A stretch of 64,000 nucleotides of DNA from Acidobacteriaceae bacterium (GTDB lineage Bacteria > Acidobacteriota > Terriglobia > Terriglobales > Acidobacteriaceae): NCBI GenBank assembly GCA_025360645.1, contig JANYBT010000089.1:1-64000 (forward strand), given 5' to 3'. Positions 16,538 to 36,749 of this stretch are shown here, piece after piece (within the stretch, counting starts at the first letter, position 1; each line of letters starts with the position of its first letter). Made by a program: the position numbers and the translations under genes. The notes under the pieces were generated by a model. It was not told the DNA's origin. It did no database searches and saw nothing but the letters and a program-made list of their open reading frames with translations.

Positions 16538-16771
16538 TCGGGGCACGGCTTTGTATAAAATCGCAGCTATGGCTCCCAATAAAACCCATGAGCTTGTCCC
16601 GGACCGAATTGCCTCTTGCTGCGCCCGTTGGTCGAGCCAGCAAAGGTAGTCGAACCACAGGCGTCGTTCCGCAGCATCGTCACCAACCCCTAAGCGGGGT
16701 GATTCCAACGGAGGTGACAATCCATCACTGATGTTTTCTTGCTGCCCTATGTTTCGATGCCCACGTAACAA
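16538..16771 (-). CDS. Possible truncated small membrane protein at the prophage edge
   Basis: A leftward frame from ATG 16771 overlaps the end of the repressor gene. It encodes about 77 residues that look like real protein, including RRLWFDYLCWLDQRAQQEA and a hydrophobic helix SSWVLLGAIAAILY. It then runs, without stopping, antisense into the mazF gene, where the translation loses protein character. This suggests that the original gene was cut by the junction with the toxin-antitoxin cassette. No homologue is recognised. Confidence 0.35.
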
Positions 16772-17463
16772 ATCCGTCCCACCAAGTAGTCGGACGGCTC
16801 TTTGCCTTCCTGCATGGGCAGGATTTCCACTGGATACGACTGGTTGTGCGGGCGCAGAATCAGATTGCGGTTGGCCACTTCCACGTACTTCACCGTGCAG
16901 TAGCCTTCTTTGTTCACCGCATACATGTTCATCTCGCCTTTGCGGTAGGAGTGCAGCGCGTTGTAGTGGCGGTCAATCAGCAGCGCCGCCCCCGGCAGCA
17001 TCCGGGGATACATGCTCATGCCTTCGTGCGCGTCCACCCGGATCAGCACGAAGCGCTCCCAGTTGTCGCGGTCGCCCTCCATCGAGGCCCGCATGCGTTT
17101 CAAAAACGTCTTCTTAAACTTCATGATCTCGCGCACGTTCATGCTGATGATCAGCGGCTCGGTCGCGGCCACATTGCTGTCGGCCAGCACCACGTTATCA
17201 AAATCGTCGTCGCTCGGCGCCATGATGGTGGCGCGCTTGTTCACTTCCGACGTGTCCAGCAGATCCAGCACCGACAGGTTTTGCACGTTGAGCACTTTGT
17301 CCATGCCCTCCAGGCTCAACCCGCGTTTGCGATTCAGAAAGTTGGAAATGTGGGCCTGCTTGAAACCGGTCTGCTCGGCAAGGCGAAGGCCAGTCAGGTC
17401 GCCGTTCTCAATGCGGTCCCAAAGGTTCTTGCGAAGATTTTCCTGCAGAGCTCGGAATTTCAT
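16747..17463 (-). CDS. Phage CI/LexA-like repressor with S24 autoprotease domain
   Basis: The 238-aa protein has an XRE-type HTH at about 22-56 (GLRLAEQTGFKQAHISNFLN) and a C-terminal S24 peptidase-like domain. The Ser/Lys dyad is visible: Ser150 in EGMSMYPRM (family form GDSMxP) and Lys192 in TVKYVEV. A variable linker of about 90 residues lies between. Such repressors keep prophage lytic genes off and cleave themselves in the SOS response. It is divergent from the rightward early genes, with a shared control region of about 150 bases, the classic arrangement of an immunity region. No canonical Ala-Gly cleavage site was identified with certainty. Confidence 0.88.
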   Translation of the reverse strand: MKFRALQENLRKNLWDRIENGDLTGLRLAEQTGFKQAHISNFLNRKRGLSLEGMDKVLNVQNLSVLDLLDTSEVNKRATIMAPSDDDFDNVVLADSNVAATEPLIISMNVREIMKFKKTFLKRMRASMEGDRDNWERFVLIRVDAHEGMSMYPRMLPGAALLIDRHYNALHSYRKGEMNMYAVNKEGYCTVKYVEVANRNLILRPHNQSYPVEILPMQEGKEPSDYLVGRICYVGIET

Positions 17464-18062: not shown

Positions 18063-18308
18063 ATGCAAGTGAACGACAATGCAATTATTTACGAACTGGC
18101 AGCAATGTCAATGGAGTTGAAGTACTGTGAACGCTGTGGTGGATTATGGTTGCGCCAACGCGGAGAAGAGGAAGTTTTTTGCAGTCCGTGCGCGCATCGA
18201 GTGGCTAGCGGACGCGAGCATCACGAGCCTATGGCGCTGGTCAAGCGTCCCGCGGGAAGAGTGACGGCGCTGCCCGCGCGACTTGCGGTCGTGGAGGTGT
18301 TCGCATGA
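18063..18308 (+). CDS. Small zinc-ribbon-like prophage protein
   Basis: This 81-aa protein contains CERCGGLWLRQRGEEEVFCSPC, two CxxC pairs 16 residues apart, typical of a zinc ribbon. The ribosome binding site AGGAGAG is good. Its stop overlaps the start of the next gene (ATGA), so the two are probably translated together. It may be a nucleic-acid binding or structural adaptor for the HTH protein that follows. Confidence 0.65.
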   Translation: MQVNDNAIIYELAAMSMELKYCERCGGLWLRQRGEEEVFCSPCAHRVASGREHHEPMALVKRPAGRVTALPARLAVVEVFA

Positions 18309-18832
18309 TCGCGGACACCCTTTCGGCCAAGCGGTTGCTCAAAAGCGATTCAAGGCGCGTGCGCTTCCAGTGGGACCCGGAGCAGGCGGACCCGAGTCTG
18401 TACTTGTATCGCAAGCAGACGACGGCTCTGCTCAGGCGCTACGGGCGGATGTCGGTCGAGGTGGGCCGTCTGCCTTCACTGGTCGGGCGCGAGATTTTTC
18501 GCAGCAAGGTCGCGTCGTGCAAGAGCAAGTCGTTCGAGGACGCCGTGATTTTTGTGCACGACGTGGAACATGTGCTGGAGCAACTGGATGACCTGGGGCG
18601 CGAGTTGATCGCCACCATCGTGCTGGAATACTACACCCAGGACGAGGCCGCCAAGCTGTTGGGGTTGTGGCGGAGCCAGGTGTCGCGGCAGTTTCCCCAG
18701 GCGCTGGACTTTCTGAGCGAGCGGTTCCTGCAGGGAGGGCTGCTCCAGGGGGAGTCTGGAATGGCGCAAATCAGGAAACCGCCGCAACCTTGTCAAGAGG
18801 CCCGAGAGGAGGTTTGTTGCTTATCTGTATGA
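18305..18832 (+). CDS. Sigma-70-region-4-like / HTH regulatory protein of the prophage
   Basis: The 175-aa protein has a C-terminal part (about 95-145) resembling sigma region 4: LDDLGRELIATIVLEYYTQD followed by EAAKLLGLWRSQVSRQFPQA, a helix-turn-helix that follows a helical core. It overlaps the zinc-ribbon gene by 4 bases. It lies directly upstream of a promoter closely followed by a terminator, exactly where lambdoid phages encode the late antiterminator Q. A role in switching on the rightward genes is therefore plausible, but no direct sequence homology to Q is claimed. Confidence 0.6.
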   Translation: MIADTLSAKRLLKSDSRRVRFQWDPEQADPSLYLYRKQTTALLRRYGRMSVEVGRLPSLVGREIFRSKVASCKSKSFEDAVIFVHDVEHVLEQLDDLGRELIATIVLEYYTQDEAAKLLGLWRSQVSRQFPQALDFLSERFLQGGLLQGESGMAQIRKPPQPCQEAREEVCCLSV

Positions 18833-18999: not shown

Positions 19000-19332
19000 A
19001 TGGTGAAGTCAAGGGCGAGGAAGGCAAGCAAGTCGGCAGCAGTAACCACGCGCAAGCCGGTGGACATGGTGAGCGTGGGCGAGAAAGTGCGCAACCTGAT
19101 TGGCAACACAGCGGAAGACATGACAGCCAAGATGATCGAAGAAGTCGAGACCAACCACAGCATCACGGCGATGAAATTCTTGTTCGAACTGGTGGGGCTG
19201 GCCCCGGGCGGAGTGGCTGAGCCGGAAGAGCCGAAGGACTCGCTGGCCAAGATTCTGTTGGACGAATTGGGCGTGCCGGAAGACGTGCGGCAACGCGCTG
19301 CGGAGATGGCCGCAGGCAATATCGTAGAATGA
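19000..19332 (+). CDS. Hypothetical prophage protein
   Basis: The 110-aa protein has a basic N-terminus (VKSRARKASKSAA) followed by helices (VGEKVRNLIGNTAEDMTAKM, HSITAMKFLFELVGL) and an acidic C-terminal half. No domain is recognised. It overlaps the phosphatase gene by 4 bases (ATGA). Position and size would allow a small terminase subunit, but no HTH is apparent and terminase large lies 9 kb away. Confidence 0.6.
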   Translation: MVKSRARKASKSAAVTTRKPVDMVSVGEKVRNLIGNTAEDMTAKMIEEVETNHSITAMKFLFELVGLAPGGVAEPEEPKDSLAKILLDELGVPEDVRQRAAEMAAGNIVE

Positions 19333-19895
19333 CGGTTGCGATGAATTACACTCCCGGAAAGTCTGGCATGGATCCGCGGCGGCTGGAAGCATCGCTGACA
19401 CGAACTCTACAAGGCGGAAGCAGCTTCAGGCGGCGATTCGCGGCCGGGACAGAACGCATGGACATGACGTGGGTAACGGGGCGGATTGCAGTAGGAGGAG
19501 GCATCTGGCACGCGGAAAACATGGCGAAGGTGGCGGCGGCGGGCGTGACCCACATCATCGACATGCAGATTGAGTTCGACGATACGTCCCTGGGGAAGCA
19601 GGCGGGAGTGGTGGTGCTGTGGAACCCAACGGACGATGATTTCACTCCCAAGCCGCCGGATTTGTTTGAGCGGGGCGTGAAGTTCGCGCGCAACGCGTTG
19701 GACGAAGAGGGCACGAAGCTGTTCATTCACTGCGCGGCGGGAATCCATCGCGCGCCGATGATGGCGCTGGCGGTGCTAGGGTCGCTGGGCTGGACGGTCA
19801 AGGCGGGGATGGAGTTAATTGAAGCCAAGCGCCCGGTGGTGGATTTCGTCGGAGTGTACGTGGAGAGCGTGAAGAGGTATCTGGAGAAGAACTAG
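19329..19895 (+). CDS. Dual-specificity protein phosphatase-like enzyme
   Basis: The 188-aa protein carries the cysteine phosphatase signature FIHCAAGIHRAP (Cys135, Arg141, CX5R), the loop upstream with VTHIIDMQIEF, and an Asp-containing segment (NPTDDDF) that could supply the general acid. The fold fits dual-specificity/atypical tyrosine phosphatases, which remove phosphate from Ser/Thr/Tyr or RNA. The catalytic core begins near WVTGRIAVGGG, so a start at Met43 or Met45 is possible. The first is chosen because it overlaps the upstream stop. It is followed by a terminator. It is unusual in a prophage and shares the element with a HipA-like kinase. Confidence 0.78.
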   Translation: MTVAMNYTPGKSGMDPRRLEASLTRTLQGGSSFRRRFAAGTERMDMTWVTGRIAVGGGIWHAENMAKVAAAGVTHIIDMQIEFDDTSLGKQAGVVVLWNPTDDDFTPKPPDLFERGVKFARNALDEEGTKLFIHCAAGIHRAPMMALAVLGSLGWTVKAGMELIEAKRPVVDFVGVYVESVKRYLEKN

Positions 19896-19995: not shown

Positions 19996-21624
19996 ATGTT
20001 TGATGCGCGCCGTCCGAGAGGACGGTTTTTTTATTGGCTGGTGATGGTGACGGCGGGACTGAGCTGGATGGTGAGCGCGGAAGTGGCGTGCGCGCAGATC
20101 AAGCCGGCGACCGTGCTGGTGGGCGACGTGGTGTACCGGGCGGACGGCACGGCGGCCGCGGGCACGGTGTTGATTTCCTGGCCGTCGTTTACCACGGCGG
20201 ATGCAACGCCGGTGGCGGCGGGGAACTTGAGTGTGAAGCTGGGAGCGGGCGGGGTGCTAACGGTGAGCCTGGCGCCAAATGTGGGAGGCACGCCAGCGAC
20301 GTTCTACACGGCGGTCTTCCAGTTGGATGATGGGACGGCGCGGACGGAGTACTGGGTGGTACCAGCGCAGGGGCCGGTTACGCTGGCGATGGTGCGGACG
20401 ACGTTGGGGACGGGAGCGGCAGCGCAGTCGGCGTCGAAGCAGTATGTGGACGGAGTGGTGAGCGGCAAGGCGAACGATGCGGTGGTGGTACACAAGAGCG
20501 GCGCCGAGGTGATTGACGGGGCGAAGAATTTCTCGGCGCCGCCGTCGGTGCCAGCGCCAGTGGGAGCGTCTGACGCAGCGAACAAGGCATACGTGGATGA
20601 AGCGGTGGCGAGTGTGGGGGCGGGGGCGTTCGTGGCGAAAGAAGGCGACGCCATGACGGGCCCGCTGACGCTGAGCGGCGATCCGGTGCAGGTCGACCAG
20701 GCGGCGACCAAACGCTATGTGGACAATGGACTGGCGACGAAAGTGGGACTGGTGAATGGAGTGGTGCCGCCGGCGCAATTGGGAAGCGGGACAGGAGACG
20801 CGAGCCTGTGCCTGAAGGGGAACTCGAGTTGGGGAGTATGCGGCGGGAGCGGGGATGCGTCGTCGATCCGCGGGGTGGTGGTGGACACGGGAACTCCGGC
20901 GGACGGGCAAGTCATTACTTACGACGCCGGGCTGGGGAAGTATAAGGCGAAGGCGATCACGACGAGCGGCAATGCGGACACGGTGGATGGAAAGCATATT
21001 GCGACGATGAACGGGGGGAAGTGCCTGCAATCGAGCGGGGACGGGACCACGATCATGGAGTCGAGCGGAGCGTGCGGGACGTTGCAGAGCGTGGCCGGAG
21101 ACCTGACGGTGACAGGGCGAGTGACGGCGGACTCATTTGTCTCGACCGGAGCGGGAGCATGGAGCGTGGAGGGATCCTACGGGACGATGACCGCAGCGGC
21201 AACGGGGAAGTCGAAGTTGGGATTCGATCCCAATGGCAAGCTGTCGGTTTCCGAGAATGCGGGAGCGGTGACGGAAGTGGCAAAAAAGCTGGCGCAGCAG
21301 TTTACGTATACGTTCTTCGATCCGCTGAACACGCTGACCACGGCGTTGCAGGTGCCATCGATCTATGTAAACCGGGGAAGCGCGTTTCATATCGTCGAGG
21401 TGTATTGCGAGATCGATGGGGGTAGCGCGACGGTGAACCTGCAGAACGGCGGGGCAAACGTGTTAAGTGCGGACCTGGTGTGCACGACGGCGGGAGCGAG
21501 CACGACTAGCTGGGTGGGCGGGAAAGACGCGGTGGCGGTGGGAGCGAAGCTGGGACACATGATGGTGGCGACCGGCGCGGGGCTGCATCGGGTGGATGTG
21601 GTGGTGCGGTATGTGGTGGATTGA
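19996..21624 (+). CDS. Exported tail-fibre-like protein
   Basis: The 542-aa protein starts at ATG 19996 behind GGAGGAG (an ATG 12 bases upstream is less well placed). A Sec signal (FYWLVMVTAGLSWMVSAEVACAQ) precedes a beta-sandwich-like domain (about 30-130: GDVVYRADGTAAAGTVLISW). Then come repeats typical of phage tail fibres: SDAANKAYVDEAV, EGDAMTGPLTLSGDPVQVD, AATKRYVDNGL. The C-terminus (NVLSADLVCTTAG, GLHRVDVVVRYVVD) resembles a receptor-binding tip. A Sec signal on a tail fibre is unexpected, because fibres are assembled in the cytoplasm. It may be an exported surface adhesin with fibre modules. Confidence 0.75.
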   Translation: MFDARRPRGRFFYWLVMVTAGLSWMVSAEVACAQIKPATVLVGDVVYRADGTAAAGTVLISWPSFTTADATPVAAGNLSVKLGAGGVLTVSLAPNVGGTPATFYTAVFQLDDGTARTEYWVVPAQGPVTLAMVRTTLGTGAAAQSASKQYVDGVVSGKANDAVVVHKSGAEVIDGAKNFSAPPSVPAPVGASDAANKAYVDEAVASVGAGAFVAKEGDAMTGPLTLSGDPVQVDQAATKRYVDNGLATKVGLVNGVVPPAQLGSGTGDASLCLKGNSSWGVCGGSGDASSIRGVVVDTGTPADGQVITYDAGLGKYKAKAITTSGNADTVDGKHIATMNGGKCLQSSGDGTTIMESSGACGTLQSVAGDLTVTGRVTADSFVSTGAGAWSVEGSYGTMTAAATGKSKLGFDPNGKLSVSENAGAVTEVAKKLAQQFTYTFFDPLNTLTTALQVPSIYVNRGSAFHIVEVYCEIDGGSATVNLQNGGANVLSADLVCTTAGASTTSWVGGKDAVAVGAKLGHMMVATGAGLHRVDVVVRYVVD

Positions 21625-21685
21625 ACCGACCCTGGTTTGGTACTTGGTTTGGATTAGAACTTCAAAGTTGGCGAAGGGAAGTTGG

Positions 21686-21717
21686 ACCCTTCGCCGGGCG
21701 CAGGATGACAAAGCAAA
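21686..21717 (+). repeat. Dispersed intergenic repeat (CCTTCGC...CAGGATGACAAA type)
   Basis: ACCCTTCGCCGGGCGCAGGATGACAAAGC resembles the motif at 33812-33841 (CCTTCGCTTCGCTCAGGATGACAAG). It sits between the fibre gene and the beta-helix gene. The motif is a known kind of short dispersed repeat in acidobacterial intergenic DNA. Confidence 0.6.
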
Positions 21718-21733
21718 TTCAGGAGTTGGGAAG

Positions 21734-24700
21734 ATGAGATGGCTGAAGAGGATGGCGCCACTGCTTCTGGCGGCGGCTTGCGCGGGACAATCCACGATGC
21801 GCGGGGCGGCGACATATGCAGGCGCGAGCAACTACGCGAGGACAGCGACAGAGGCGATGGCGCCGGCGCTGCCCCAAGCCTGGGTGAACAGCCAGGAATG
21901 CGATGCGCCGAACGGTGTGTATGACGCGATTAAGACAGTGAAGGCGACCGGCGGCGACTATGCCGGCACCCAGGCGGGATTGAATCAGGCGATGGCGGAT
22001 TGGGCCGTGGCAGCCGACCAGTGGGAATTGGTGCAGGTGGATGCGGGACTGCTGCTGGCGGGGAGCACAACGGTGTCGATTCCCTATAAGGCGGGGGCCA
22101 CCAAGTGTTTGCGCGTACAATCCTCGGTGCCTCCGACAGCGGGGCAAACCCTGTGCAGCCATCGGATCACCGACAACCCGGACGAGAGCAATCCCCGGAA
22201 TCCGGGATGCACAAACGATGTAGCCAATCTGTTCACCATCGAGCAGACGGCTTACAACAACAACGCGGTGGCGTGCGCGAGCGGTGCGAACCATGTAGTT
22301 TTTTCCGATGCAGAACTGAGGCCACCGGTCGCGGATGCCCACTCGATATGGAATCAACTCTTGCAGTGTGGCGACAACACGACCACCGACGTATCTCAGC
22401 TTCCGTATGATGTTGGCTTTGAATACCTCTACATTCACACTTGGGGGCCAGGGGATGTCGGCGCACCAGCGCACGGAACGGCGATGGGGACAGCGATTGA
22501 GGCAGATTGCGTTCGATGCTGGTTTATGTGGAACTACGCGGAGAAAATCCAAGCGGACAGTTCTGAGTCACACGTATTCCATACCCAGAACACCCCAGGA
22601 CCGATGAAGGTTGTCGGGAACTTCTTTGAAGGGGCCAGCATCACCTGGTTTACGGGAGGCGGGGGATGTGAAAACCCCTCTCTGGCATCTTCCCCCACGG
22701 GACTGACGGAAGTTGGAACCACGGTCACAGTCACGCTGGCCAGCCTTCCGTACCACCTAGCCTACCTGGGGGAGACCGTTTTCATCTACGGAGCGGGAGT
22801 GGCGGACTACAACGGGACGTGGGTCGTCACGAATGTCCTGAGCACCACGAAGTTCCAGTACACCAGCACAATCGCAGGTTCGGCGGCCTCCGGTGGCGGA
22901 AAGATGTATGACGTAAACTGCTCACCCACCGGGATTCCTCAAGTGGCGCCTTCTGACATCGAGTTGAGGGAAAACAGGTTGACGCGGGATATTACATGGA
23001 AGAACGTGAGTGGGTCGCAATGCACAACCCCCACATCGCCGTTGTACCCATGCACCCAACACTGGGCGATCAAGAACTCACTGGAATTCAAAGGTGGGCG
23101 CCGGGTTCTAGTGGACGGGAACATCATCGAGAACTCATGGGTGGATGGACAGACGGGATACTGCATACTGCTGGACACTCGCAACTGTTCAGGGGGGACG
23201 ACCTGTGACATTCCGGGAGCGGGGCAGGCTCCGAGCAATAATACGACGGACTTCACGTTCACGAACAATATTGTGCGTAACTGCGCGGCTGGTATCCAGT
23301 TAGACGGACGCTCTGGGCCATCGTCGAACGGTGGTGGGGTTTCGGCGGGCGGGAGGCGGTGGCTGTTCAGCAACCTGCTGATGTACAACATTGACGATTC
23401 CGCTTATCAATACTATCCGGGAGCGAGCCATCATTATGTGTCGCTGGGGTCGAGCCAAAATTCCTTCATTTGCTCGGCGGTGCGAGACGGCCACGGTTTG
23501 ACTTCGACCTTGACCTGCCCCTCGGGAGGACATGGATTCAATGAGACGGGCATCTCTCCGGGCGATATTGTGCAGGTAGGCGACCGCAGCGGAAGTCCTC
23601 CGAGCAACTGCGCCGACCCTAGTTTCAATACGCCATACTCGACGACGAACAACCAGGGCGCGATTGCGATTGTGGCGCTACCGCCAACCTGGCCCGGAGG
23701 ATTGACCGTGACTTATAGCAATCCGGGAACGGCGGGAGCGACGACGACGGGATGTTACTTGAGCAATAACAGCGGATGGCCCAAGGGAGTGACGTTCCGG
23801 CATTCCACTTTCGCTTCGGCCACCGGAGTCGATCAAGGCACCGGAAATGCACGAGTGCAGCTCCAATATGGTGCAACCTCGCTGGTGCAGAACTTCACGT
23901 TGATGGACTCGCTTTTCGCCAACGGCATTGCGCTCAACAGCGTGGGACAGGGGGGGGAAGGAACGAAGGCTGCGGATTGCTGTCTGGATGAGAGCACGCT
24001 GACGTTCCATCACAATGTGGCGGGGACGCGGACGGCAAACAATTACACCGAGTTTGGGGGAGCCAACAACGGGGCGCACAATCCAGTGACGATTTACTTT
24101 CCGGCCAACACAGGGTGCGCGACGGGGAACGCCACCAGCGAGGGATCCTGCATTGGACTCGCCGGATTTATGAACGGGACGGGTTATAGCGGGGCGCCGG
24201 CGGATTACCACAGGTTCGCGCTTGATGCGAGCAGCCCTTATAAGGGAAGGGCGAGCGATGGCGGCGACATTGGAGCGAATCTCTCGGAGATTGACGCTGC
24301 GCTAATCACCCGGAAGTACAAGTGCACGACGGGGTGCGGGTCGGGACCCTACGCGGACGAGCCGGCGGTCCCGGCAACATTGTTTGGGATGCACATCAAT
24401 TCCTCCAGTTCGCTGTGGCCGACAGTGCCGGTGGGATCGCTGCGGCTGATGGACGATGCGACGGCGTGGCCGTTCCTGAACGGGAGCACGCAGGGCACGT
24501 ACACCTGGAGCAACCTGGACAACTGGCTGTCTCTGGCGAAGGCACACGGCGTGACCGATCTGATGTACCTGATGGGGCGCACGCCCAACTGGAGTTCGTC
24601 GAATCCGACGGACACGAGTTGCCAGTATTACAACGCTAATCCTGGGAGCGGGGCGTTTGCGCCAGGGCAATGCTATCCAACATCGGACCTGGCGGCTGGA

Positions 24701-25714
24701 AGCAGCGATGCGATGTGGACGGGATGGGCCGCAGCGTTGGCGAGTCACATCAATGGATTGGGAGGGAGTTACTCAAAGCCGAGTGTGTTTGAACCGTGGA
24801 ACGAAGTGACGGTAGCGACGGGATGGAAAGGGACGGATGCGCAGCTGGCGCAACTGACAATCGATGCCAGCGCAACCATCAAGCCGATTCTGGGCGGGGC
24901 GCGGATCAGTTCGCCGACGACGGTGAACTGGAATCCACCGGCGGCGAAGGGAGTAGCGACGGCATTGACCAACATTTTCAACGCGACCCCTACGCTCAGT
25001 GCGAGCAATGGAGTGAGGACGGTGGCGAATTCGGTGGACATGCTGAGCTTCCACTCGTACATGAATTCGGGGGACCCGGAGGAGTTGATGAACATGGCGG
25101 CGATGCTGCGAGCGAGCGTGTCCGCAGCGAGTCGGTACGCGCTCTGGGACACGGAATTATCGTGGGGGGCAAACTCACCGTTAGTGAACGACGAGGACCT
25201 ACGCGCGGCCTACATCGCGCGATCCTATCTGGTGGGCTACACGGCGGCGGGTTTCCAGCGCATGTACTGGTACGGGTGGGACTTTTCGAACACGGGCAAC
25301 ACAGGGCTGGCGTCGTGGACGGATACGGCGCGGTGTACGCAAGCGATCGGGAGCGCAGGTGGACACGCCTGGTATCTGTGCCGCAGCGGCATCGCGTATC
25401 AGCAGGTGAATTCGTGGATGGTGGGCAACACGGTGACACAAGCATGCTCAGGGCCGATGCCGGTGCTGGGTGGAACATCGGCGTATGGGCTATGGACGTG
25501 CGGACTGCAGAAGCCAGACGGCACCATGCTGCGGGTGGTTTGGAACACTTCCAACTGCATGGGCGGGACGCTGGCGAGTTGCGCGACGACAACTTATACG
25601 GCGCCGCCGGGAACCACCGGATATTACACCTTGGACGATGGCAACTTTACTGCGGCGGCGCCAGGGCAGGTGCTGACGGTGGGAGCAAAGCCGATCGCGA
25701 TTGCGTGGCGATGA
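21734..25714 (+). CDS. Large exported beta-helix protein with C-terminal glycoside-hydrolase barrel
   Basis: The 1326-aa protein starts at ATG 21734 behind AGGAG. A signal sequence (LLLAAACAGQ, possibly a weak lipobox) is followed by a long right-handed beta-helix region (about 200-830) with pectate-lyase-like turns (LEFKGGRRVLVDGNIIENSW, FTFTNNIVRNCAAGIQLDGR). The C-terminal 400 residues form a clan-A-like TIM barrel resembling GH39/GH5: acid/base Glu1024 in FEPWNEV and nucleophile Glu1141 in ALWDTELSWG, with SFHSYMN between. It could degrade an exopolysaccharide, like phage tailspike depolymerases, but carries a Sec signal. The next gene encodes a second beta-helix enzyme. Confidence 0.8.
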   Translation: MRWLKRMAPLLLAAACAGQSTMRGAATYAGASNYARTATEAMAPALPQAWVNSQECDAPNGVYDAIKTVKATGGDYAGTQAGLNQAMADWAVAADQWELVQVDAGLLLAGSTTVSIPYKAGATKCLRVQSSVPPTAGQTLCSHRITDNPDESNPRNPGCTNDVANLFTIEQTAYNNNAVACASGANHVVFSDAELRPPVADAHSIWNQLLQCGDNTTTDVSQLPYDVGFEYLYIHTWGPGDVGAPAHGTAMGTAIEADCVRCWFMWNYAEKIQADSSESHVFHTQNTPGPMKVVGNFFEGASITWFTGGGGCENPSLASSPTGLTEVGTTVTVTLASLPYHLAYLGETVFIYGAGVADYNGTWVVTNVLSTTKFQYTSTIAGSAASGGGKMYDVNCSPTGIPQVAPSDIELRENRLTRDITWKNVSGSQCTTPTSPLYPCTQHWAIKNSLEFKGGRRVLVDGNIIENSWVDGQTGYCILLDTRNCSGGTTCDIPGAGQAPSNNTTDFTFTNNIVRNCAAGIQLDGRSGPSSNGGGVSAGGRRWLFSNLLMYNIDDSAYQYYPGASHHYVSLGSSQNSFICSAVRDGHGLTSTLTCPSGGHGFNETGISPGDIVQVGDRSGSPPSNCADPSFNTPYSTTNNQGAIAIVALPPTWPGGLTVTYSNPGTAGATTTGCYLSNNSGWPKGVTFRHSTFASATGVDQGTGNARVQLQYGATSLVQNFTLMDSLFANGIALNSVGQGGEGTKAADCCLDESTLTFHHNVAGTRTANNYTEFGGANNGAHNPVTIYFPANTGCATGNATSEGSCIGLAGFMNGTGYSGAPADYHRFALDASSPYKGRASDGGDIGANLSEIDAALITRKYKCTTGCGSGPYADEPAVPATLFGMHINSSSSLWPTVPVGSLRLMDDATAWPFLNGSTQGTYTWSNLDNWLSLAKAHGVTDLMYLMGRTPNWSSSNPTDTSCQYYNANPGSGAFAPGQCYPTSDLAAGSSDAMWTGWAAALASHINGLGGSYSKPSVFEPWNEVTVATGWKGTDAQLAQLTIDASATIKPILGGARISSPTTVNWNPPAAKGVATALTNIFNATPTLSASNGVRTVANSVDMLSFHSYMNSGDPEELMNMAAMLRASVSAASRYALWDTELSWGANSPLVNDEDLRAAYIARSYLVGYTAAGFQRMYWYGWDFSNTGNTGLASWTDTARCTQAIGSAGGHAWYLCRSGIAYQQVNSWMVGNTVTQACSGPMPVLGGTSAYGLWTCGLQKPDGTMLRVVWNTSNCMGGTLASCATTTYTAPPGTTGYYTLDDGNFTAAAPGQVLTVGAKPIAIAWR

Positions 25715-25767
25715 GAGTGGGACTGGGATGGTGCGGGACACCAAGGTCGATGGGGAAATGGGGAGAT

Positions 25768-27975
25768 ATGACGAGAGTGCTTCGATTGGCGGCGGTGATG
25801 ATCTGGCTGGCGGCGGGCGCGGCGGCTGCGACGTATTACGTGGACGCTACCGGCGGGAATGACGTCAACAGCGGGCTGGCGAGCAGCGCGGCGTGGAAGA
25901 CGATTGCGAAAGTCAATGGGATGACGTTTGGCGCGGGCGACCAGATCCTGTTCAAGCGGGGCGAGACCTGGCGAGAGAGTCTGGTGCCGCCATCGAGCGG
26001 AGCGGCGGGAAATCCGATCACGTTCGACGCGTATGGCACGGGGGAGGCGCCGACGATCACGGGAAGCCTGGACCTGTCAGTGACATCGGCATGGACGCTG
26101 GATTCGGGGAACATCTGGAAGACGACGGTGAGTTCGTTGGGAATGACCTACGTGCTGTTTGGGACGGAGTGGGGGACGAGGCACACGACGTCGAAAACGG
26201 AGTGCGTGGCGACGCGGGATTATTTCTTCATGTCGAACACGCTGTATGTGTACTCGGTGGGGAACCCGGCGGTGTACTACGGGACAGTGGCGGCAATGCT
26301 GCTGACCAACGGGCAGTTGATCTACATCAACGGGAAATCGTGGGTGGATGTGCAGCATTTTAAGCTGACGTACTTCGACGGGTACGGAGTGAGGATCGGC
26401 GGGGCGGCGGACCATATTCATGTGGCGAACGTTTCGGCGGACGGGATGATTCCAGCGGGCACGATGCCGCACGGGTTTTATGTGAGCGCGAGTCCGACGC
26501 CGACGGACATCAGCTTTTATGACGACGACGCGCACCGGAACTACAACGGATTTCGATTTGATGGAACGGCGACGGGGATCAAAGTGAAGAATTGCCGGGC
26601 GTATGGAAATCGCAACCACGGCCTGGAAGACAACGGGGGCGGGGCGAATTACGTGTACTGCCATTTTTACGGCAACGGGTTAGGAGTGCTGAGCTCGACG
26701 GATGTGACGGGAGGAGTGGATGGCGGGGGGAACATCGCGTCCTATACTGACCCGCAGGTGACATGGTTCCGCAGGTATGAGGCGCGGATCACGCTGACCG
26801 AGGACGATCCTGGATTGATCGATGCGAGCGCGTATGTGGACGGATGGCTGCCGCAGTTTGACCAGCGGGGATTGCAGCCGAGCCTGGCGATCGTGACCGG
26901 GTACGACCTGTCGAACCAGATGATTCCGGAATTCCAGAAATGGATCAACGCGGGGCGGGATGTGAATGCACATTCGTGGTCGCACCAGTATTTCCAGAAG
27001 GCGAATGAGCTGAATGCGCTGACCATCCACTATACGGGGACGGGGACAGCGGGGACGCTGACGATCAGCGGAAACCATTTGACGACGACGGTGACGGGCG
27101 GGCCGGGGGGCGAAGGGATGAACCTGGACTTGACGAGTTCGTCGTACGACACGTTGTCGAAGCTGGTGGCGACGATCAACGGGCGCGTGGTGTACGCGGC
27201 GACGCAAGTGGCGGGGGCGCAGGGTGCGGCGCACACCATCGGGCTGGCAGACGTGGCGGGGCAGGACGTCAAGGGGACGACGTACACCGCATTGTTCCAG
27301 GAGAGCCGATTGGAGGCGGACGAGATGGCGAGTGCGAAGGCGTGGATGAACGCGAACCTGACGGGGCTGCCGGCAGCGCGGGTGTATGTGTATCCGGGCG
27401 GAGAGGAAGACACGAGCACGCAAGGGTATGCGGTGACGGCGGGATATGCGGGAGGGCGCGGAGCGTTCACCATGGATTTGGGAACCAAGGATGTGTACGC
27501 GCGGGGAGTGAATGTGCAGAACATCACCAGCTTTGGAGTGAATCCGGCGCTGCTGGGGCTGACGGCGACGGCGATGGATGCGCGGATAGCATCGCTGGTG
27601 TGGAAGAGCGCGGTGTGGGGAGCGCCGTACGGAGTGTTCTGGCACCTGAACGAGCTGACGCCGACGGAGGTGGGGAACCTGCTGGATGCGTTGATCGCGC
27701 ACGGTGCCTTGGTGATGACGAACACGCAGCTAGTGAACTGGATCAAGGGAACGACGCAAGTGGGGACGGGGACGTACTGGGTGGCGGCGGCGACGGGGCC
27801 GGAGGTGGACACGCGGCCGACTGTGGCATCTCCGGTGGTGAATGCGGGAACGGATTTGGGCGCGGGATTCCGGCTGGATCTGGAAGGGAACGATCAAGCA
27901 GCGTGGGGTCCGCAGTGGGAGATGGGGGCGTATGCCTATGTTGGGGGAAAGACCTGGGTGGTGGTGGTGAATTAG
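25768..27975 (+). CDS. Exported beta-helix protein with split polysaccharide deacetylase domain
   Basis: The 735-aa protein starts at ATG 25768 behind GGGGAG. Order: signal peptide (about 1-20), DUF1565-like start (TYYVDATGGNDVNSGLASS), right-handed beta-helix (to about 320), then a CE4/NodB-like deacetylase. Metal-site residues are visible: Asp346/Asp347 in LTEDDPG and His402/His406 in NAHSWSHQ. A segment of about 100 residues (420-520) rich in Thr/Gly interrupts the barrel before YVYPGGEEDTSTQGYAV and the rest of the fold. CE4 enzymes remove acetyl groups from amino sugars or xylan. The fusion suggests binding and deacetylating a surface polysaccharide. Confidence 0.8.
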   Translation: MTRVLRLAAVMIWLAAGAAAATYYVDATGGNDVNSGLASSAAWKTIAKVNGMTFGAGDQILFKRGETWRESLVPPSSGAAGNPITFDAYGTGEAPTITGSLDLSVTSAWTLDSGNIWKTTVSSLGMTYVLFGTEWGTRHTTSKTECVATRDYFFMSNTLYVYSVGNPAVYYGTVAAMLLTNGQLIYINGKSWVDVQHFKLTYFDGYGVRIGGAADHIHVANVSADGMIPAGTMPHGFYVSASPTPTDISFYDDDAHRNYNGFRFDGTATGIKVKNCRAYGNRNHGLEDNGGGANYVYCHFYGNGLGVLSSTDVTGGVDGGGNIASYTDPQVTWFRRYEARITLTEDDPGLIDASAYVDGWLPQFDQRGLQPSLAIVTGYDLSNQMIPEFQKWINAGRDVNAHSWSHQYFQKANELNALTIHYTGTGTAGTLTISGNHLTTTVTGGPGGEGMNLDLTSSSYDTLSKLVATINGRVVYAATQVAGAQGAAHTIGLADVAGQDVKGTTYTALFQESRLEADEMASAKAWMNANLTGLPAARVYVYPGGEEDTSTQGYAVTAGYAGGRGAFTMDLGTKDVYARGVNVQNITSFGVNPALLGLTATAMDARIASLVWKSAVWGAPYGVFWHLNELTPTEVGNLLDALIAHGALVMTNTQLVNWIKGTTQVGTGTYWVAAATGPEVDTRPTVASPVVNAGTDLGAGFRLDLEGNDQAAWGPQWEMGAYAYVGGKTWVVVVN

Positions 27976-28054
27976 CCGCTGGCGAGAAACACGCCACGAC
28001 GGAGGCGCGCAGAAAAGCGGGGCGCGGGGTGGCGGCTGAGCATTGCGACCAGGT

Positions 28055-29860
28055 ATGGGGGCGGGGATGGGGGCGGAGATGGGAAAGGATGTGGAGCTCT
28101 TGAAGGACTACGAGTTGTTGCTGGTGCTGGGGCAGTGGCTGGATGAGCGTCCCGATGCGCTGGGGTGGAATATCCGCAAGGGCAAGCACGGGCTGTGCGA
28201 TCTGCACGTGCACCTGGAGCGGCTGCGGCGGGCGGAGAAGCTGGCAGAGGAAATCGGGAGCGGACTAGGAGCAACGGCGCTGCAAGTGATCCGGAGTGCG
28301 GAGAACGTTGAGGAGTGCGGCGAGGAGAGCAGTGGGGGAGAGTTTGGGAGTGGAGCGGCGGAGGAGTTGAGAGGGATCGTCGGCGAGATGCCGGGAACGG
28401 CGGGGATAAGAGGGAGAGGGATTCCGCCGACGGTGCGGGACTGGATCATGGAAACAGTGTTGATGATTCGGAGCAAAGAGGGGCGGAAGAGGTTGAAGCT
28501 GAACCGGACGCAGCAGGAGTACTCGTTGCGGTGCACCAAGCAGAACATCGTGTTGAAGGCGCGGCAGTTGGGGATGACGACGTACATCGCGGCGAGATTT
28601 TTTGTGCAGGCGATCACGCGACCGGGGACGGTGAGCTTGCAGGTGGCGCACGACCAGGATGCGGCGGAAGCGATATTCAGGATAGTGCACCGATTCTGGG
28701 AGAACCTGCCCAGGTCGATGCGGGAAGGCGCGCTGGTGACGTCGCGCGCGAATGTCCGCCAGATTGTCTTTCCGATGCTGGACAGCGAGTATCGGGTGGC
28801 GGCGGCGGATGAGAACGCGGGGCGCGGGTTGACCCTCCACAACTTGCATTGCTCGGAGGTGGCCCGCTGGCCCCGCGGGGGCGAGGATACGCTGGCGTCG
28901 CTGCGTGCGGCGGTGGTGCCGGGAGGGGAGATTGTGCTGGAGTCCACGCCGAACGGGGCGTGGGGAGTGTTCTACGACGAGTGGATGAGGGCGGGCGAAA
29001 CGGGATACACGCGGCACTTTTTCCCCTGGTGGTATGAGCCGCGATATGCCATCAAGCCGCAGCCGTTACTGCTTCCGTACAAGCCGGACGAGCAGCGGGT
29101 GGCGGATGAGCACGGGTTGACGCAGGCGCAGATGCAGTGGCGGCGTGCGCAATGGACGGCGATGAAGGGACTGGGACCGCAGGAGTTCGCCGAGGATGCG
29201 GTGTCGTGCTTCCGCGCGTCAGGGGAGTGCGTGTTTGAGTTGGACGCAGTGGACAAGGCGATGCAGTGCAGCCGGGATCCAGTGGAACTGCGGGACAATC
29301 GCCGGCTGATGGTGTGGCTGCCGCCGCAGCCGGGACATGAATACATTGTGGGAGTGGATCCGGCGGGCGGAGGGGCGCAAGGGGACTACTCATGCGCGCA
29401 GGTGATGGACCGGGAAAGCGGGATGCAATGCGCGGAGTTGCATGGACACTATCCGCCGAGAGAGTTGGCGAACAAGCTGCTGGAGTTGGGGCGGGAGTAC
29501 AACGGGGCGCTGCTGGCGGTGGAGAGCAACAATCACGGACACGGAGTGCTGGCGCACCTAAAGGAGAGGCAGTATCCGAATATGTACTTCCGGCGGGGGC
29601 AAGCAGGGTGGGTGACGAACCAGGTGACGCGACCGGCGATGCTGGAGACATTGGCGGAGGCGGTGGGGCAGAGTCCGGAGAAGTTCACCAGTCCGCGGTT
29701 GCTGAACGAGCTGCGAACGTTCGTGCGGGATGCGGCGGGCAACACGGGAGCGGCAGCGGGATCGCATGATGATTGTGTGATGGCGATGGCGATCAGTTGG
29801 GCGGTGCGGAGGGAAGTGGTGGGGAGGCATCGCGAGATGGAATGGGCGAGTGTAGGGTAG
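28055..29860 (+). CDS. terL: Phage terminase large subunit
   Basis: The protein is about 601 aa. It powers DNA packaging into the prohead and cuts the concatemer. ATPase domain: a Walker A-like KARQLGMTT near residue 168 and a Walker B/catalytic segment LTLHNLHCSEVARWP near 265. RNase H-like nuclease: Asp435 in IVGVDPAGGG, AVESNNHGHG, and Asp572/Asp573 in SHDDCVMAM. The N-terminal 100 residues are a helical extension. In-frame TTG 28043 and ATG 28055, 28067 and 28079 are all possible starts; none has an ideal ribosome binding site. No small subunit is next to it. Confidence 0.92.
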   Translation: MGAGMGAEMGKDVELLKDYELLLVLGQWLDERPDALGWNIRKGKHGLCDLHVHLERLRRAEKLAEEIGSGLGATALQVIRSAENVEECGEESSGGEFGSGAAEELRGIVGEMPGTAGIRGRGIPPTVRDWIMETVLMIRSKEGRKRLKLNRTQQEYSLRCTKQNIVLKARQLGMTTYIAARFFVQAITRPGTVSLQVAHDQDAAEAIFRIVHRFWENLPRSMREGALVTSRANVRQIVFPMLDSEYRVAAADENAGRGLTLHNLHCSEVARWPRGGEDTLASLRAAVVPGGEIVLESTPNGAWGVFYDEWMRAGETGYTRHFFPWWYEPRYAIKPQPLLLPYKPDEQRVADEHGLTQAQMQWRRAQWTAMKGLGPQEFAEDAVSCFRASGECVFELDAVDKAMQCSRDPVELRDNRRLMVWLPPQPGHEYIVGVDPAGGGAQGDYSCAQVMDRESGMQCAELHGHYPPRELANKLLELGREYNGALLAVESNNHGHGVLAHLKERQYPNMYFRRGQAGWVTNQVTRPAMLETLAEAVGQSPEKFTSPRLLNELRTFVRDAAGNTGAAAGSHDDCVMAMAISWAVRREVVGRHREMEWASVG

Positions 29861-29965: not shown

Positions 29966-30763
29966 TTGACGATTCAGGCAGTCCAACACGTGCGTCGGAT
30001 GCGAGGCGGAGCGCAGGGGCATATGATGCGCTGCGACGATGGTCACTACTATGTGGTGAAGTTCCAGAATAACCCGCAGCACTTGCGAGTGCTGGCGAAC
30101 GAGTTTCTGGCCACGCGGTTGGCGGATAAGGCGGGATTGCCGGTGCCGGTGACGGAAGTGGTGGAAGTGAACGAGTGGCTGGTGCAGCACACGGCGGAGT
30201 TGAACATTCTGCTGGGACAGAACGCCATTGCGTGCGCGCCGGGATTGCAATTTGGCTCGCGGTATGTGGTGAGCCCGCTGGAAGGGCAGGTGCTGGATTA
30301 TCTGCCGTCGGACATGCTGGACCGAGTGCGGAACCTGGAGACATTTGCCGGCATGCTGACCGTGGACAAGTGGACGTGCAATGCGAACGGGCGGCAGGCG
30401 GCATTTTGGCGGAAGATGAAAGAGCGAAAGTACACGGTGAGCTTTATCGACCAGGGATATTGCTTCAATGCGGGGGAGTGGACGTTTCCAGATTTTCCGC
30501 TGCGCGGGGTGTATGCGCGGAATGAAGTGTATGCCGGAGTGAGGGGATGGAAGTCGTTTGAGCCGTGGCTGTCAAACATCGAGAACATGAGTGAGGACGT
30601 GATCTGGGCGGAGGCGGGGAATATTCCACCGGAATGGTATGGGGGAGAGTGGGACGAGCTGGAGAAGCTGGTGAAGAAGTTGATTGAGCGGCGGGGAATA
30701 GTGCGAGAGTTGATTGAGGCGTTTCGAGTATCGCCGCGACGGCCGTTTCCGGAGTGGAACTAA
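29966..30763 (+). CDS. HipA-like kinase (HipA_2 type)
   Basis: The 265-aa protein starts at TTG 29966 behind AGGATAAGGG. It resembles the short HipA-related kinase family: YYVVKFQNNPQHLRVLANEF (ATP-binding Lys in VVKF), then MLTVDKWTCNANGRQAAFW (catalytic loop Asp with downstream Asn) and YTVSFIDQGYCFN (metal-binding Asp in the DxG-like IDQG). It lacks the N-terminal HipA domain. It overlaps the DUF3037 gene by one base (TAATG), a pair often seen together in bacterial genomes. Here it sits between terminase and portal and ends in its own terminator, as an accessory cassette. Its target is unknown; HipA itself phosphorylates glutamyl-tRNA synthetase. Confidence 0.8.
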   Translation: MTIQAVQHVRRMRGGAQGHMMRCDDGHYYVVKFQNNPQHLRVLANEFLATRLADKAGLPVPVTEVVEVNEWLVQHTAELNILLGQNAIACAPGLQFGSRYVVSPLEGQVLDYLPSDMLDRVRNLETFAGMLTVDKWTCNANGRQAAFWRKMKERKYTVSFIDQGYCFNAGEWTFPDFPLRGVYARNEVYAGVRGWKSFEPWLSNIENMSEDVIWAEAGNIPPEWYGGEWDELEKLVKKLIERRGIVRELIEAFRVSPRRPFPEWN

Positions 30764-31569
30764 TGGCGGAGATGCGACAAGTCGAATTTTTCCTGCTGCA
30801 GTATGTGCCGGATGTGGTGAAGGGGGAATTCATTAATGTCGGGCTGGTGATGGTGGAGGCGACCGAGCAGGGATTTGTGGATGTGCGGTTCATGCGGGAG
30901 TGGCGTCGGTTGAAAGGGCTGGACGGCGACGTGGACACCGAGATGCTGGATGCGCTGGAGCGGGACATCCGGGGAAACCTGGGCGACGTGAAAGACCGCG
31001 AAGGGTTGATGAAGCGCTTGCAGGATTCGTTTTCGAACGCCATTCAACTGTCGGCAACGAAAGGGTGTCTGACGGTGGATCCGGTGAAAGAGATTGAGAC
31101 AATGGCGCGGTTGTATTTGGAGAGCGCGCCGCGGCCGCGGGAGCGGGAGACGGGAGCGCGGCAGAAAATTGTGGCGCAGATGCGGAGCGCGTTTGAACAG
31201 GCCGGGGTGTGGGAACTAATGCGGAAGCAGATTGCGGTGGCGGCATACACCTATAAAGGAGATCCGCTGAAGATCGATTGCGGGTACCGTCCGAATGGAG
31301 TGATCCAGATGTTCCATGGGGTATCGCTGGAGCGGGATGTGAACGAGGCGAAGGTGATGGGGTTCAGCTTTCCGCAGATGGTTGCGGGAATGGCGCGGGA
31401 AGAGAAGGCGGAAGCGCGATTGACCGCAGTGGTGAAAGACGGATTGGACCGCAGCGATGAGGGGATCGAGTTCGCGCTTACGATGATGGAGCGGAGCGGG
31501 ATTGTGGTGGCGCGGGTGGGAGAGATAGGAGAGTGGGCGGAGCGAGCCCGGCGGGAGATGCGAGTGTAG
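30763..31569 (+). CDS. DUF3037-family partner of the HipA-like kinase
   Basis: The 268-aa protein starts at ATG 30763, coupled to the kinase stop. The N-terminal 120 residues match the DUF3037 pattern: VEFFLLQYVPDVVKGEFINV, GLVMVEATEQGFVDVRF and DVKDREGLMKRLQDSFSNAI. The C-terminal half (DPLKIDCGYRPNGVIQMFHG) is the usual extension. DUF3037 proteins have no known activity but are commonly encoded next to HipA-like kinases, so it is probably the cognate partner or regulator (antitoxin-like or substrate-binding). Confidence 0.8.
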   Translation: MAEMRQVEFFLLQYVPDVVKGEFINVGLVMVEATEQGFVDVRFMREWRRLKGLDGDVDTEMLDALERDIRGNLGDVKDREGLMKRLQDSFSNAIQLSATKGCLTVDPVKEIETMARLYLESAPRPRERETGARQKIVAQMRSAFEQAGVWELMRKQIAVAAYTYKGDPLKIDCGYRPNGVIQMFHGVSLERDVNEAKVMGFSFPQMVAGMAREEKAEARLTAVVKDGLDRSDEGIEFALTMMERSGIVVARVGEIGEWAERARREMRV

Positions 31570-31720: not shown

Positions 31721-33007
31721 ATGAAGATCACAGAGAAGATACGCGGAGCGATGCGACGGGTGGCGGAGGCGGGGATAGGAAAACTTTCAGCGGGAACCGC
31801 CCTGGCTGCCGGGCACGAACTTGCTGCGGAGGTGGAACGGAAGACAGTGGCGTTGCCGTCGGTGCTGAGTCCGTATGGTCGAGGGGGAGCCGGATCTCTG
31901 GCATCGTTTGGGTTTGGGTCGGGAATGGGAAACGTGATGCCGAAGGCGACGCCGGCGAATTTGCGGCGGTTCGCGGAGACGCCGATTGCGCGGCGGGGGA
32001 TCAACACGATCAAGGACCGGATCGCGGGAATGCGGTGGCGGATCCAGCCCAAGCGCGGGCGCACGCTGGAAACGATTCCCCAGGGCGCGATGCGGGTGCA
32101 GGCGTTGACGGAGAATTTCGAGGCGCCGAATCCTGACGACTCGTTCCGATCGTTGGCGGAGCAGGTGCTGGAAGATGTGATTGTCGGCGGATTCGGAGCG
32201 ATTGAGGTGGGGGCGACGGGCGACGCGGGGCGTCCGCTGGAACTGTGGCCGGTGGATGGAGCGACCATCCGAATGAAAACGGATTGGGACGGCCTGCCGG
32301 GATCGACGCGCTATGTGCAGGTGACGGGGCGGATGGGAGTGGAGGGAAACATCACGCTGAATGACGACGAGTTGATCTATATCCGATTGAACCCACGCAC
32401 CCACACTCCGTTTGGGCTGGGGAAGCTGGAGGTGGCGTTCGAGGCCATCAACGCATTTCTGAGCGCGCACCGGTACGCGGGACGGCTGGCGTCGAATTCG
32501 GTAGTGCAGTACGCGCTGTGGCTGCAGGATTTGAGCCCGGCGCATCACGAACGGCTGATCCGATGGTGGCAGGACGAGATTGAAGGGACGGGGAAGGTCC
32601 CGATTCTTTCGGTGGAGAACAGGCCGGAAGTATTGCGGTTCGGGCAAGGGACGGATGCGGATCTGCGGTTGAGCTGGCAGGAGTTTTTGCTGCGCGTGAT
32701 TGCAGATGCGTTTGACCTTCCGCCGCAGTGGCTGGGGGTGGAGCGGGATGTGAACCGGTCCACGGCAGCGGAGATGAACGACCAGGCGTTCCGGCAGGCG
32801 ATTGTTCCGACGGCGCGGTTGCTGGCGGAGTACCTGACGCGGGATGCCATCGGGAAGAAGCTGGGATGGAGCGACCTGGAATTTGTATTCACCGATCTCG
32901 ATGCACGGAATGAGATGGAGCAGGCGCAGATCGAGGAGATCCTGTTGCGCAGTGGAGTGTTGACGGTGAACGAGGTGAGGCGGGGGCGGGGGTTGGCGGA
33001 GATCTAG
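31721..33007 (+). CDS. Phage portal protein
   Basis: The 428-aa protein starts at ATG 31721 behind GGAGG. It resembles HK97-type portals: FAETPIARRGINTIKDRIAG with MRWRIQP near the N-terminus, EQVLEDVIVGGFGAIEVG, LWPVDGATIRM, RLNPRTHTPFGLGKLEVA, and LRVIADAFDLPPQWLGVERD followed by STAAEMNDQAF. Portals form the dodecameric ring at one capsid vertex through which DNA enters and leaves. Length is normal. The gene is flanked by repeat-filled gaps rather than the tight spacing usual in phage head operons. Confidence 0.9.
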   Translation: MKITEKIRGAMRRVAEAGIGKLSAGTALAAGHELAAEVERKTVALPSVLSPYGRGGAGSLASFGFGSGMGNVMPKATPANLRRFAETPIARRGINTIKDRIAGMRWRIQPKRGRTLETIPQGAMRVQALTENFEAPNPDDSFRSLAEQVLEDVIVGGFGAIEVGATGDAGRPLELWPVDGATIRMKTDWDGLPGSTRYVQVTGRMGVEGNITLNDDELIYIRLNPRTHTPFGLGKLEVAFEAINAFLSAHRYAGRLASNSVVQYALWLQDLSPAHHERLIRWWQDEIEGTGKVPILSVENRPEVLRFGQGTDADLRLSWQEFLLRVIADAFDLPPQWLGVERDVNRSTAAEMNDQAFRQAIVPTARLLAEYLTRDAIGKKLGWSDLEFVFTDLDARNEMEQAQIEEILLRSGVLTVNEVRRGRGLAEI

Positions 33008-33149: not shown

Positions 33150-33809
33150 ATGGGGACGATGGAATGCGGAATGGAGTTGGAGGCGATGGCGGTGGAGATG
33201 CCGGAGGTGGCGGGGCATCCGAACCGGGTGGGATTTCGAGGAGTGTTGACGCTGGTGGATCTGCCGTCGGATGGAGCGCCGCACGGAGCGAATGGGAGGC
33301 GGGTGATCGTGACCAGGCGGGCGGTGGAGAAAGCGATCCCGTCGCTGCTGGGCATGGGACTGGACTACGCGCCGGCGTTCGACGGGCACGACGCGCAGCG
33401 CAAGGTGGGAGTGATCACGCGGGCAGAAGTCACGCGGAATGCGGTGGAGGTGGGCGGGTATTTATTCGGGCATGATTTCCCGGAGGTGGTGGAAGAGATT
33501 CGGGAAGCGGCGTTGAAAGCGGGGCGGGACGAAGGGAGTGCGGCAGCCAAGCCGGCGAAAGTGAGCGGCCTGGGGAAGGAGCGGGGGCGTTGGTTGCTGG
33601 CGGTGTTGCAGGCAGGGAGCCGGCGGCTGCGGGCGCGGTACTCCCGTGGGAAGGGTGGGCCACTCGGAATGTCGTACGAGATGACGGGCGTGGACATTGA
33701 GGACAGAAGAGCACGAACGTGGGTGGTGAGGGCGATGATGTTCACCGGGGCGGCGGTGTTGCGGCGGGAGAAAGCGGCGTACCGGGGGACGTGGATTGAG
33801 TTGGAATGA
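33150..33809 (+). CDS. Putative prohead maturation protease
   Basis: This 219-aa protein lies between portal and scaffold/capsid genes, the normal place for the prohead protease. It shows LGMGLDYAPAFDGHDAQRKV (possible catalytic His in DGHD), GYLFGHDFPEVVEEI, and LGMSYEMTGVDIEDRRART (possible catalytic Ser in GMSYE), followed by VVRAMMFTGAAVLRREKAAY. The His-then-Ser order and the strand pattern fit herpesvirus-like (S78/S73-type) prohead proteases. Cleavage of scaffold and capsid is inferred, not seen. A Lys/Arg-rich segment (residues 140-170) is unusual. Confidence 0.65.
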   Translation: MGTMECGMELEAMAVEMPEVAGHPNRVGFRGVLTLVDLPSDGAPHGANGRRVIVTRRAVEKAIPSLLGMGLDYAPAFDGHDAQRKVGVITRAEVTRNAVEVGGYLFGHDFPEVVEEIREAALKAGRDEGSAAAKPAKVSGLGKERGRWLLAVLQAGSRRLRARYSRGKGGPLGMSYEMTGVDIEDRRARTWVVRAMMFTGAAVLRREKAAYRGTWIELE

Positions 33810-36294: not shown

Positions 36295-36702
36295 ATGCAG
36301 GTGGCGATGAGTGGAAGTGCGTTGGCGCGAGCCGCGGATGCGATGCTGCAAGCGATGGGAGCACAACAGATAACGCTGTTGTTTGCGGGGGCCGGGGTGG
36401 CAGGAGATGCGGCGTGGGAGTTGGGGTTGGTGGATCCGGGAGTAGAGCAGGTGGTGGTTGGGCCAGTGGCGGTGCGCCGGCTGCCAACCTCGAATGCAGG
36501 GCCGCGGCAGAGGTTGGAGATTCTGGTGGGGCGGGGAGCGATTGAGGACGAATTGAGTTTACGGAACGTGCCGTCAGGGCAAGCGCTGCTGGAGTCGGTG
36601 CTGGGAGTGGTGTATGGCGGCGAGATGTTTGACGTGGAAGGCGTGGTCGCCGAGCAGTTTGCGGGGCAGGATTATTTGTACCGCGTAGTGGTGATTGAGT
36701 GA
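36295..36702 (+). CDS. Head-completion protein candidate
   Basis: This 135-aa protein starts one base after the connector stop. It has a helix (SALARAADAMLQAMGAQQIT) and a beta-rich remainder (RQRLEILVGRGAIEDELSLR, YLYRVVVIE). The order after the adaptor, the small size and the beta character fit a head-tail stopper, but no homologue is recognised. ATG 36307 is an alternative start. Confidence 0.5.
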   Translation: MQVAMSGSALARAADAMLQAMGAQQITLLFAGAGVAGDAAWELGLVDPGVEQVVVGPVAVRRLPTSNAGPRQRLEILVGRGAIEDELSLRNVPSGQALLESVLGVVYGGEMFDVEGVVAEQFAGQDYLYRVVVIE

Positions 36703-36749
36703 GGGTGGGTGACGCCTGGGTTGGCGCAGACGTGGATAGGGGAAATCAC

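Follow-up and report, generated by a model that had tools for sequence, protein, structure and literature searches.

Why should three consecutive genes that carry modules of phage tail spikes, lying directly upstream of a terminase gene, each begin with a Sec-type signal peptide? The question arises in a stretch of 64,000 nucleotides from an Acidobacteriaceae bacterium (assembly GCA_025360645.1, contig JANYBT010000089.1; this whole stretch is called the window below), in which a prophage-derived block spans approximately 16.7-42.3 kb. The three genes, here named gp1 (19996..21624), gp2 (21734..25714) and gp3 (25768..27975), all on the forward strand, had been singled out in an earlier note on this DNA, and they are indeed found as it placed them, with plausible ribosome sites and immediately ahead of the gene for the terminase large subunit (28043..29860, forward strand; phrog_2, E 4e-30; Terminase_6C). 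Our reading, to which we assign a probability of about one half, is that they are a cassette for exported fibres within an ancient prophage remnant that Acidobacteriaceae inherit vertically and that resembles a gene transfer agent (GTA), and that they act on glycans outside the cell.

The three proteins are unrelated to each other, and all start with canonical n-h-c regions followed by AxA sites: MFDARRPRGRFFYWLVMVTAGLSWMVSAEVACA in gp1, whose ATG at 19996 is preceded by GGAGGAG, MRWLKRMAPLLLAAACA in gp2 (ATG 21734, preceded by AGGAG), and MTRVLRLAAVMIWLAAGAAA in gp3 (ATG 25768, preceded by GGGGAG; an alternative ATG at 25750 retains the signal). Since these ribosome sites precede the upstream starts, we rejected the possibility that translation begins downstream of the hydrophobic segments. 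In gp1, sequence, ribosome-site spacing and homologues together delimit a signal of 34 residues up to the modelled domain start (19996..20097, forward strand). By a home-made hydropathy/AxA rule, applied in one permissive search, a signal peptide is present in 43 of 43 distinct gp1 homologues and, as a control under the same scoring, in 4 of 361 further genes from the element. The n-region of gp1 (19996-20040) also holds an RPxGRLFYW motif that recurs in several genera and goes beyond what a generic signal needs.

Behind the signal, gp1 has the layout of a lambda-Stf-like tail fibre, with an N-terminal anchoring beta-sandwich (approximately 20098-20400), KYVD fibre repeats (approximately 20440-20740) and a variable C-terminus, and it matches a tail-fibre PHROG with an E of 8e-9, an assignment that alignment also supports. 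We modelled the mature N-terminal domain (NTD) without the signal by AF2 and compared it by Foldseek, where it resembles neck and tail-fibre anchoring domains of phages, including lambda-like ones (best PDB E 1.5e-3, best viral E 1.7e-8). The fold is that of the ur-lambda tail tip (9e7m) and the A-1(L) neck fibre (8keg), from which gp1 differs by its low sequence similarity and by the Sec signal peptide that precedes the domain. A sequence search of solved structures with the gp1 NTD, p37 and p38 gave nothing useful. Because the modelled NTD is like phage anchoring domains and the signals are universal, gp1 is a fibre of phage type to which an export signal has been added. Its homologues, 540-3000 residues long, precede the terminase gene in almost every copy of the element. 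In a sample across the phylum, gp1 occurs in 25 genomes of the family, exactly the 25 that have the element's capsid gene, and 24 of the 25 gp1-capsid pairs are on one contig, approximately 4-23 kb apart. When the INPHARED phage collection was searched with gp1, gp3 and the capsid, gp1 and gp3 gave one weak match each and the capsid none. Insertion of host surface genes into a prophage, one of two readings offered in the earlier note, is unlikely for gp1, owing to the phage fibre-anchoring fold and its presence in nearly every element copy, and we rejected it for this gene; for gp2 and gp3, which vary, it keeps some plausibility.

The gp1 gene is also kept where capsid genes are not. Among the sampled family genomes, gp1 is present without a capsid match in 20, too high a figure for capsid loss, as some of the contigs stop short: in L276 a complete element is cut by the contig end, and L280 is also cut. 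We read 12 such loci together with one second gp1 copy (L285). Two of them (L274, L277) are deletion remnants in the original slot, in which everything from the terminase to p37 is gone and gp1 is intact. Three others, from three genera (L279, L281 and L282, of which L279 is cut at the end of the fetched sequence), have one common in-frame fusion of gp1 to residue 232 of the tail hub protein, with 62-67% identity between genera, and L278 carries a separate, independent gp1-hub fusion. Occurrence of the whole trio in chromosomes free of phage genes had been named as evidence against its phage link, and here the outcome is mixed: the trio was not found outside the element, but gp1 alone was, in three loci without phage genes nearby (L273, L275, L285). 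In L273 and L275 it is followed by a Poly_export/SLBB polysaccharide export gene (57% identity for the gp1 pair, 63% for the export pair), in L285 it adjoins guaA, and capsid-less gp1 also adjoins glycosyltransferase genes. The signal is conserved in the capsid-less and the stand-alone copies. A tree of low overall resolution places L275 and L285, both relocated, among the element copies. Two genomes of another acidobacterial family (loci L265, L266) encode a signal-bearing protein with the gp1 NTD beside a Flp-type pilin gene, again without phage genes. The export signal and the persistence without capsid genes suggest that gp1 is a virus fibre turned into a surface or secreted glycan protein of the host.

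The two genes that follow are of a different character, gp1 being the core fibre of the element and gp2 and gp3 variable cargo. The cargo downstream of gp1 differs between genomes and often bears signals too. The catalytic residues quoted for them earlier are exact (Glu1024 and Glu1141 in gp2; Asp346/347, His402 and His406 in gp3), and the domain assignments, modestly supported, are weaker than they had been worded. For gp2, whose open reading frame (ORF) in the window was set by hand as the gene caller misses it, we found no match in Pfam and no relatives in IMG/VR; a marginal match to the GH39 beta-xylosidase 6uqj (E 0.03), in which the two catalytic Glu align, points to a putative GH-A type barrel at the C-terminus, behind a large beta-rich N-terminal part that is rich in Cys (34 Cys). 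In gp3 the matches to Beta_helix (3.6e-5) and Polysacc_deac_1 (9e-4) stay below the Pfam threshold, and the full CE4 motif set is present (Asp-Asp, HxxxH metal triad), consistent with a right-handed beta-helix joined to a CE4-type deacetylase; the beta-helix cap resembles 7v6m, and the mature end starts directly at it. Cys content is 16.5 per 1000 in the spike genes versus 9.1 in the head genes, a difference that speaks for the exported-fibre reading. The beta-helix and CE4 motifs of gp3 and the Glu pair of gp2 liken them to secreted enzymes (polysaccharide-lyase-like beta-helix, CE4, GH-A), from which they differ in the fusion of modules and in their site inside a phage-derived operon. Relatives of the gp3 beta-helix also occur beside phage genes in viral contigs, both with a signal (L032, L039, L040, L042, L043) and without (L034-L036, L029, L038), and signal-bearing spikes in other phage contigs mean that spike export is not unique to this element.

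What kind of element, then, carries these genes? A terminase homologue was found in 24 of the 61 related genomes, almost always as a single copy and in every case within the same family, the Acidobacteriaceae. The capsid gene occurs in 70 of 120 Acidobacteriaceae genomes, one copy each, and in 25 of 297 genomes sampled across the phylum, again all Acidobacteriaceae; in a scan of named genomes, the 80 matches listed of 200 relatives are almost all from Acidobacteriaceae or from acidobacterial metagenome-assembled genomes. Gene order is conserved across genera, and many genomes have the element in one slot, flanked by the same transglycosylase-like gene upstream and the same E2-acyltransferase (SucB-like) gene downstream. 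Of 16 splits in a tree of eight concatenated element proteins, 7 recur in that of rpoB, against a maximum of 3 over 5000 label shuffles, and the distances correlate with those of rpoB (Mantel r 0.87). The element is under purifying selection (median dN/dS 0.14 for the capsid, 0.20 for the terminase, 0.14 for the hub and 0.16 for the gp1 NTD). It is thus a single-copy, vertically inherited, prophage-derived element and not an ordinary prophage.

These features invite comparison with GTAs, which are defined by proteins derived from caudoviricetes, full endogenisation, mostly vertical inheritance with host co-diversification, mostly random host DNA in the particles, a head whose capacity falls short of the element's genome, and delivery of DNA to other cells (PMC9662315). 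The acidobacterial element has caudoviricete-derived proteins (terminase, portal, adaptor and the fold of the tail hub), it is endogenised as a single copy in a conserved slot with no integrase in the window, and it is inherited vertically and co-diversifies with its host; these three are the criteria that sequence can address, and we call it GTA-like and do not class it as a GTA. With RcGTA (Rhodogtaviriformidae; PMC9662315) it shares head genes of caudoviricete origin, endogenisation, a single copy, co-diversification with the host family and the lack of any replication genes found, and it differs in that no tape-measure gene was found and its fibres have signal peptides. The tailspike of RcGTA, TspA, is loosely attached to the particles and acts on exopolysaccharide (PMC13420450). 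It is like gp1 in being a glycan-directed spike, conserved with a GTA, that has an N-terminal beta-sandwich; it differs in that it rides on particles, and no signal peptide is mentioned in that paper, whereas gp1 outlives the capsid genes. Searches of the open-access literature turned up neither a GTA nor exported fibres described from Acidobacteria. The element itself, to judge from the passages that describe it, has been published only as the prophage 'Cluster 153', considered to be among likely active prophages (Eichorst et al. 2018, PMC5900883): the regions given there, 150-180 kb of Terriglobus roseus NC_018014 and 60-90 kb of scaffold 5 of KBS 89, coincide with our loci L176 and L220. 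A fixed slot, vertical inheritance and exported fibres are not reported in those passages.

Under the reading we favour, gp1 would be translocated by Sec to the periplasm, would fold and probably trimerise outside the cytoplasm, and would finally reside at the cell surface or in the matrix around the cell; there it could bind or trim exopolysaccharide, its variable C-terminal part being the glycan-binding or -cleaving portion. The glycosidase-like gp2 and the deacetylase-like gp3 would be secreted too, as interchangeable enzymes with the same purpose. Where the element is complete, exported gp1 may in addition encounter particles as they are released; where it is reduced, the surface role alone would be left. 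The retention of gp1 where the locus can make no particle is the reason for favouring export and a role on surface or matrix glycans. The other earlier proposal, a lysogenic-conversion module working on host polysaccharide, is right in one part and wrong in the other: action outside the cell gains support from the universal gp1 signals and from the presence of gp1 in capsid-less remnants and beside polysaccharide-export and glycosyltransferase genes, but to speak of prophage conversion is mistaken for an element that passes down vertically as a single copy. One could go further and speculate, as a view that we hold tentatively and at somewhat less than even odds, that a GTA-like viriform lineage specific to Acidobacteriaceae had its tail fibres re-targeted via Sec, and that the fibre became an exopolysaccharide-associated surface or secreted protein of the host that persists after the capsid genes are lost; given the signal-bearing fibres of other phages, Sec export of fibres would then be a wider, unrecognised form of spike deployment.

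Several points weigh against domestication as a surface protein. Signal-bearing fibres with the gp1 NTD are found in apparently genuine phage contigs, namely L263 (tape measure, Dit, J), L264 (terminase, capsid) and L262 (capsid), and export alone therefore does not imply domestication. The NTD has the look of a domain for docking to virions, and this speaks for particles. The decay of gp1 in L283 and L284 means that the gene is dispensable, and its stand-alone position beside polysaccharide export is probably one event common to two genera. Export, location and substrate of gp1-gp3 are predictions from sequence, and such large proteins would have to cross the outer membrane. In the main rival the proteins are virion spikes assembled outside the cytoplasm: the fibres would be exported before lysis, dock via the beta-sandwich onto released particles and clear exopolysaccharide. 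The fold shared with neck and tail-fibre anchors, the tight linkage of gp1 to the capsid genes, the occurrence of signal-bearing NTD fibres in phages that have a full set of tail genes and the precedent of TspA (PMC13420450) all speak for it. Against it stands the intact gp1 of loci that lack capsid genes, whether alone or fused to the hub, and gp2 and gp3 have no anchoring domain. We know of no phage fibre documented as assembling outside the cytoplasm after export, and we regard this alternative as unlikely, though the most serious of those considered.

A family of ordinary temperate prophages with lysogenic-conversion genes and one preferred integration site is considerably less probable. 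Such prophages would account for the repressor with its S24 domain, the intact head genes, the relatives in IMG/VR contigs and the earlier description as active prophages in the passages on Cluster 153 (PMC5900883), but not for exactly one copy each in 70 family genomes, the congruence with rpoB, the deletions and rearrangements in place, or the purK/purE genes within the element in some genomes. Profile searches among the scanned element ORFs of the window found no integrase or replication genes, as integration, excision and replication of an active temperate prophage would call for; the tyrosine integrases of the source genome sit on other contigs. More improbable still, by a small step, is that the hydrophobic N-termini are virion or membrane peptides and not export signals, the proteins being ordinary tail spikes assembled in the cytoplasm. 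The fibre fold, the position beside head genes and those gp3 beta-helix relatives in other phage contigs that start without a signal agree with this, whereas the canonical n-h-c regions and AxA sites that three unrelated proteins all have, a mature gp3 that begins directly at the beta-helix cap, and signals kept in capsid-less and stand-alone copies argue against it. If the favoured reading is true, a phylum that ranks among the most abundant in soil gains a candidate GTA-like element, a route from virion fibre to secreted host protein is preserved with its intermediates (the complete element, the remnant left by deletion, the fusion to the hub and the relocated gene), and it becomes questionable whether the fibres of tailed phages are, as a rule, produced in the cytoplasm alone.

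The remainder of the element is laid out around the three genes as follows. At the upstream edge lies a Cro/C1-type repressor with an S24 peptidase domain (16747..17463, reverse strand; Peptidase_S24 E 7e-7, HTH_26, and a transcriptional-repressor PHROG), whose position is kept in other genomes; all further element genes are on the forward strand. It is followed by a sigma-70 region-4-like protein (18305..18832; sigma-factor PHROG E 1e-5, sigma70-ECF below threshold; present in 20 genomes) and a dual-specificity phosphatase (19329..19895; DSPc E 5.5e-9), a conserved neighbour upstream of gp1 seen in 14 genomes. The first approximately 100 residues of the terminase are not conserved and relatives align from about residue 129; judging by the sequence, its true start may be later than 28043. 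Stops in the terminase of relatives were not adopted as a sign of pseudogenes, as the matches may extend past the stop. Between terminase and portal, in nearly all element copies, stand a HipA-like kinase (29966..30763; HipA_2 E 1.4e-10, gene order) and the partner with which it forms a conserved pair (30754..31569; phrog_5137, gene order), which we take to be DUF3037-like; the pair covers 29966-31569.

The head block consists of the portal protein (31721..33007; phrog_2662, E 1e-41), a putative head maturation protease (33150..33809) assigned from its conserved position between portal and capsid without a family match, one or more scaffold-like genes, and the probable major capsid protein (34511..35482), assigned from position and conservation without a PHROG or Pfam match; the capsid is the most conserved gene of the element, with 72-84% identity to the window copy across genera. 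A head-tail adaptor (35667..36293; phrog_442, E 5e-6 in a longer ORF) and three neck- or tail-type genes in conserved order without family matches (36295, 36705 and 37289; 36295..38215) lead to the tail hub protein (38358..40688). The latter, of 776 residues, is modelled by AF2 with a pLDDT of 90 as a gp27/VgrG-like protein with an inserted lectin-like beta-sandwich, for which Foldseek returned Mu gp44 and the MuSo2 tail protein, as well as 3mep and 2a5z. The tape-measure gene that a long-tailed siphophage has between tube and hub was not found, and in most genomes no gene lies in this interval (p37 to p38). Four small genes (40685, 41032, 41329 and 41635; 40685..42309) end the element; the first two are kept ahead of the flanking host E2 gene in relatives, and the last has a lipoprotein-like signal.

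Upstream of the element, the window holds a lone contractile-tail sheath gene (11212-12666; Phage_sheath_1 E 6e-19), apparently without other tail genes nearby. A transposase-like ORF (14447-15301) lies beside the upstream edge, and the usual upstream host flank is missing in the source genome. In several other genomes purK/purE lie inside the element, between the scaffold-like and capsid genes, or directly behind it (L171, L175, L180, L192; also L167, L176, L188). In one clade (L088, L169, L170, L172, L182-L184, L189) the capsid block has moved upstream of gp1, and the genes from terminase to portal remain downstream.

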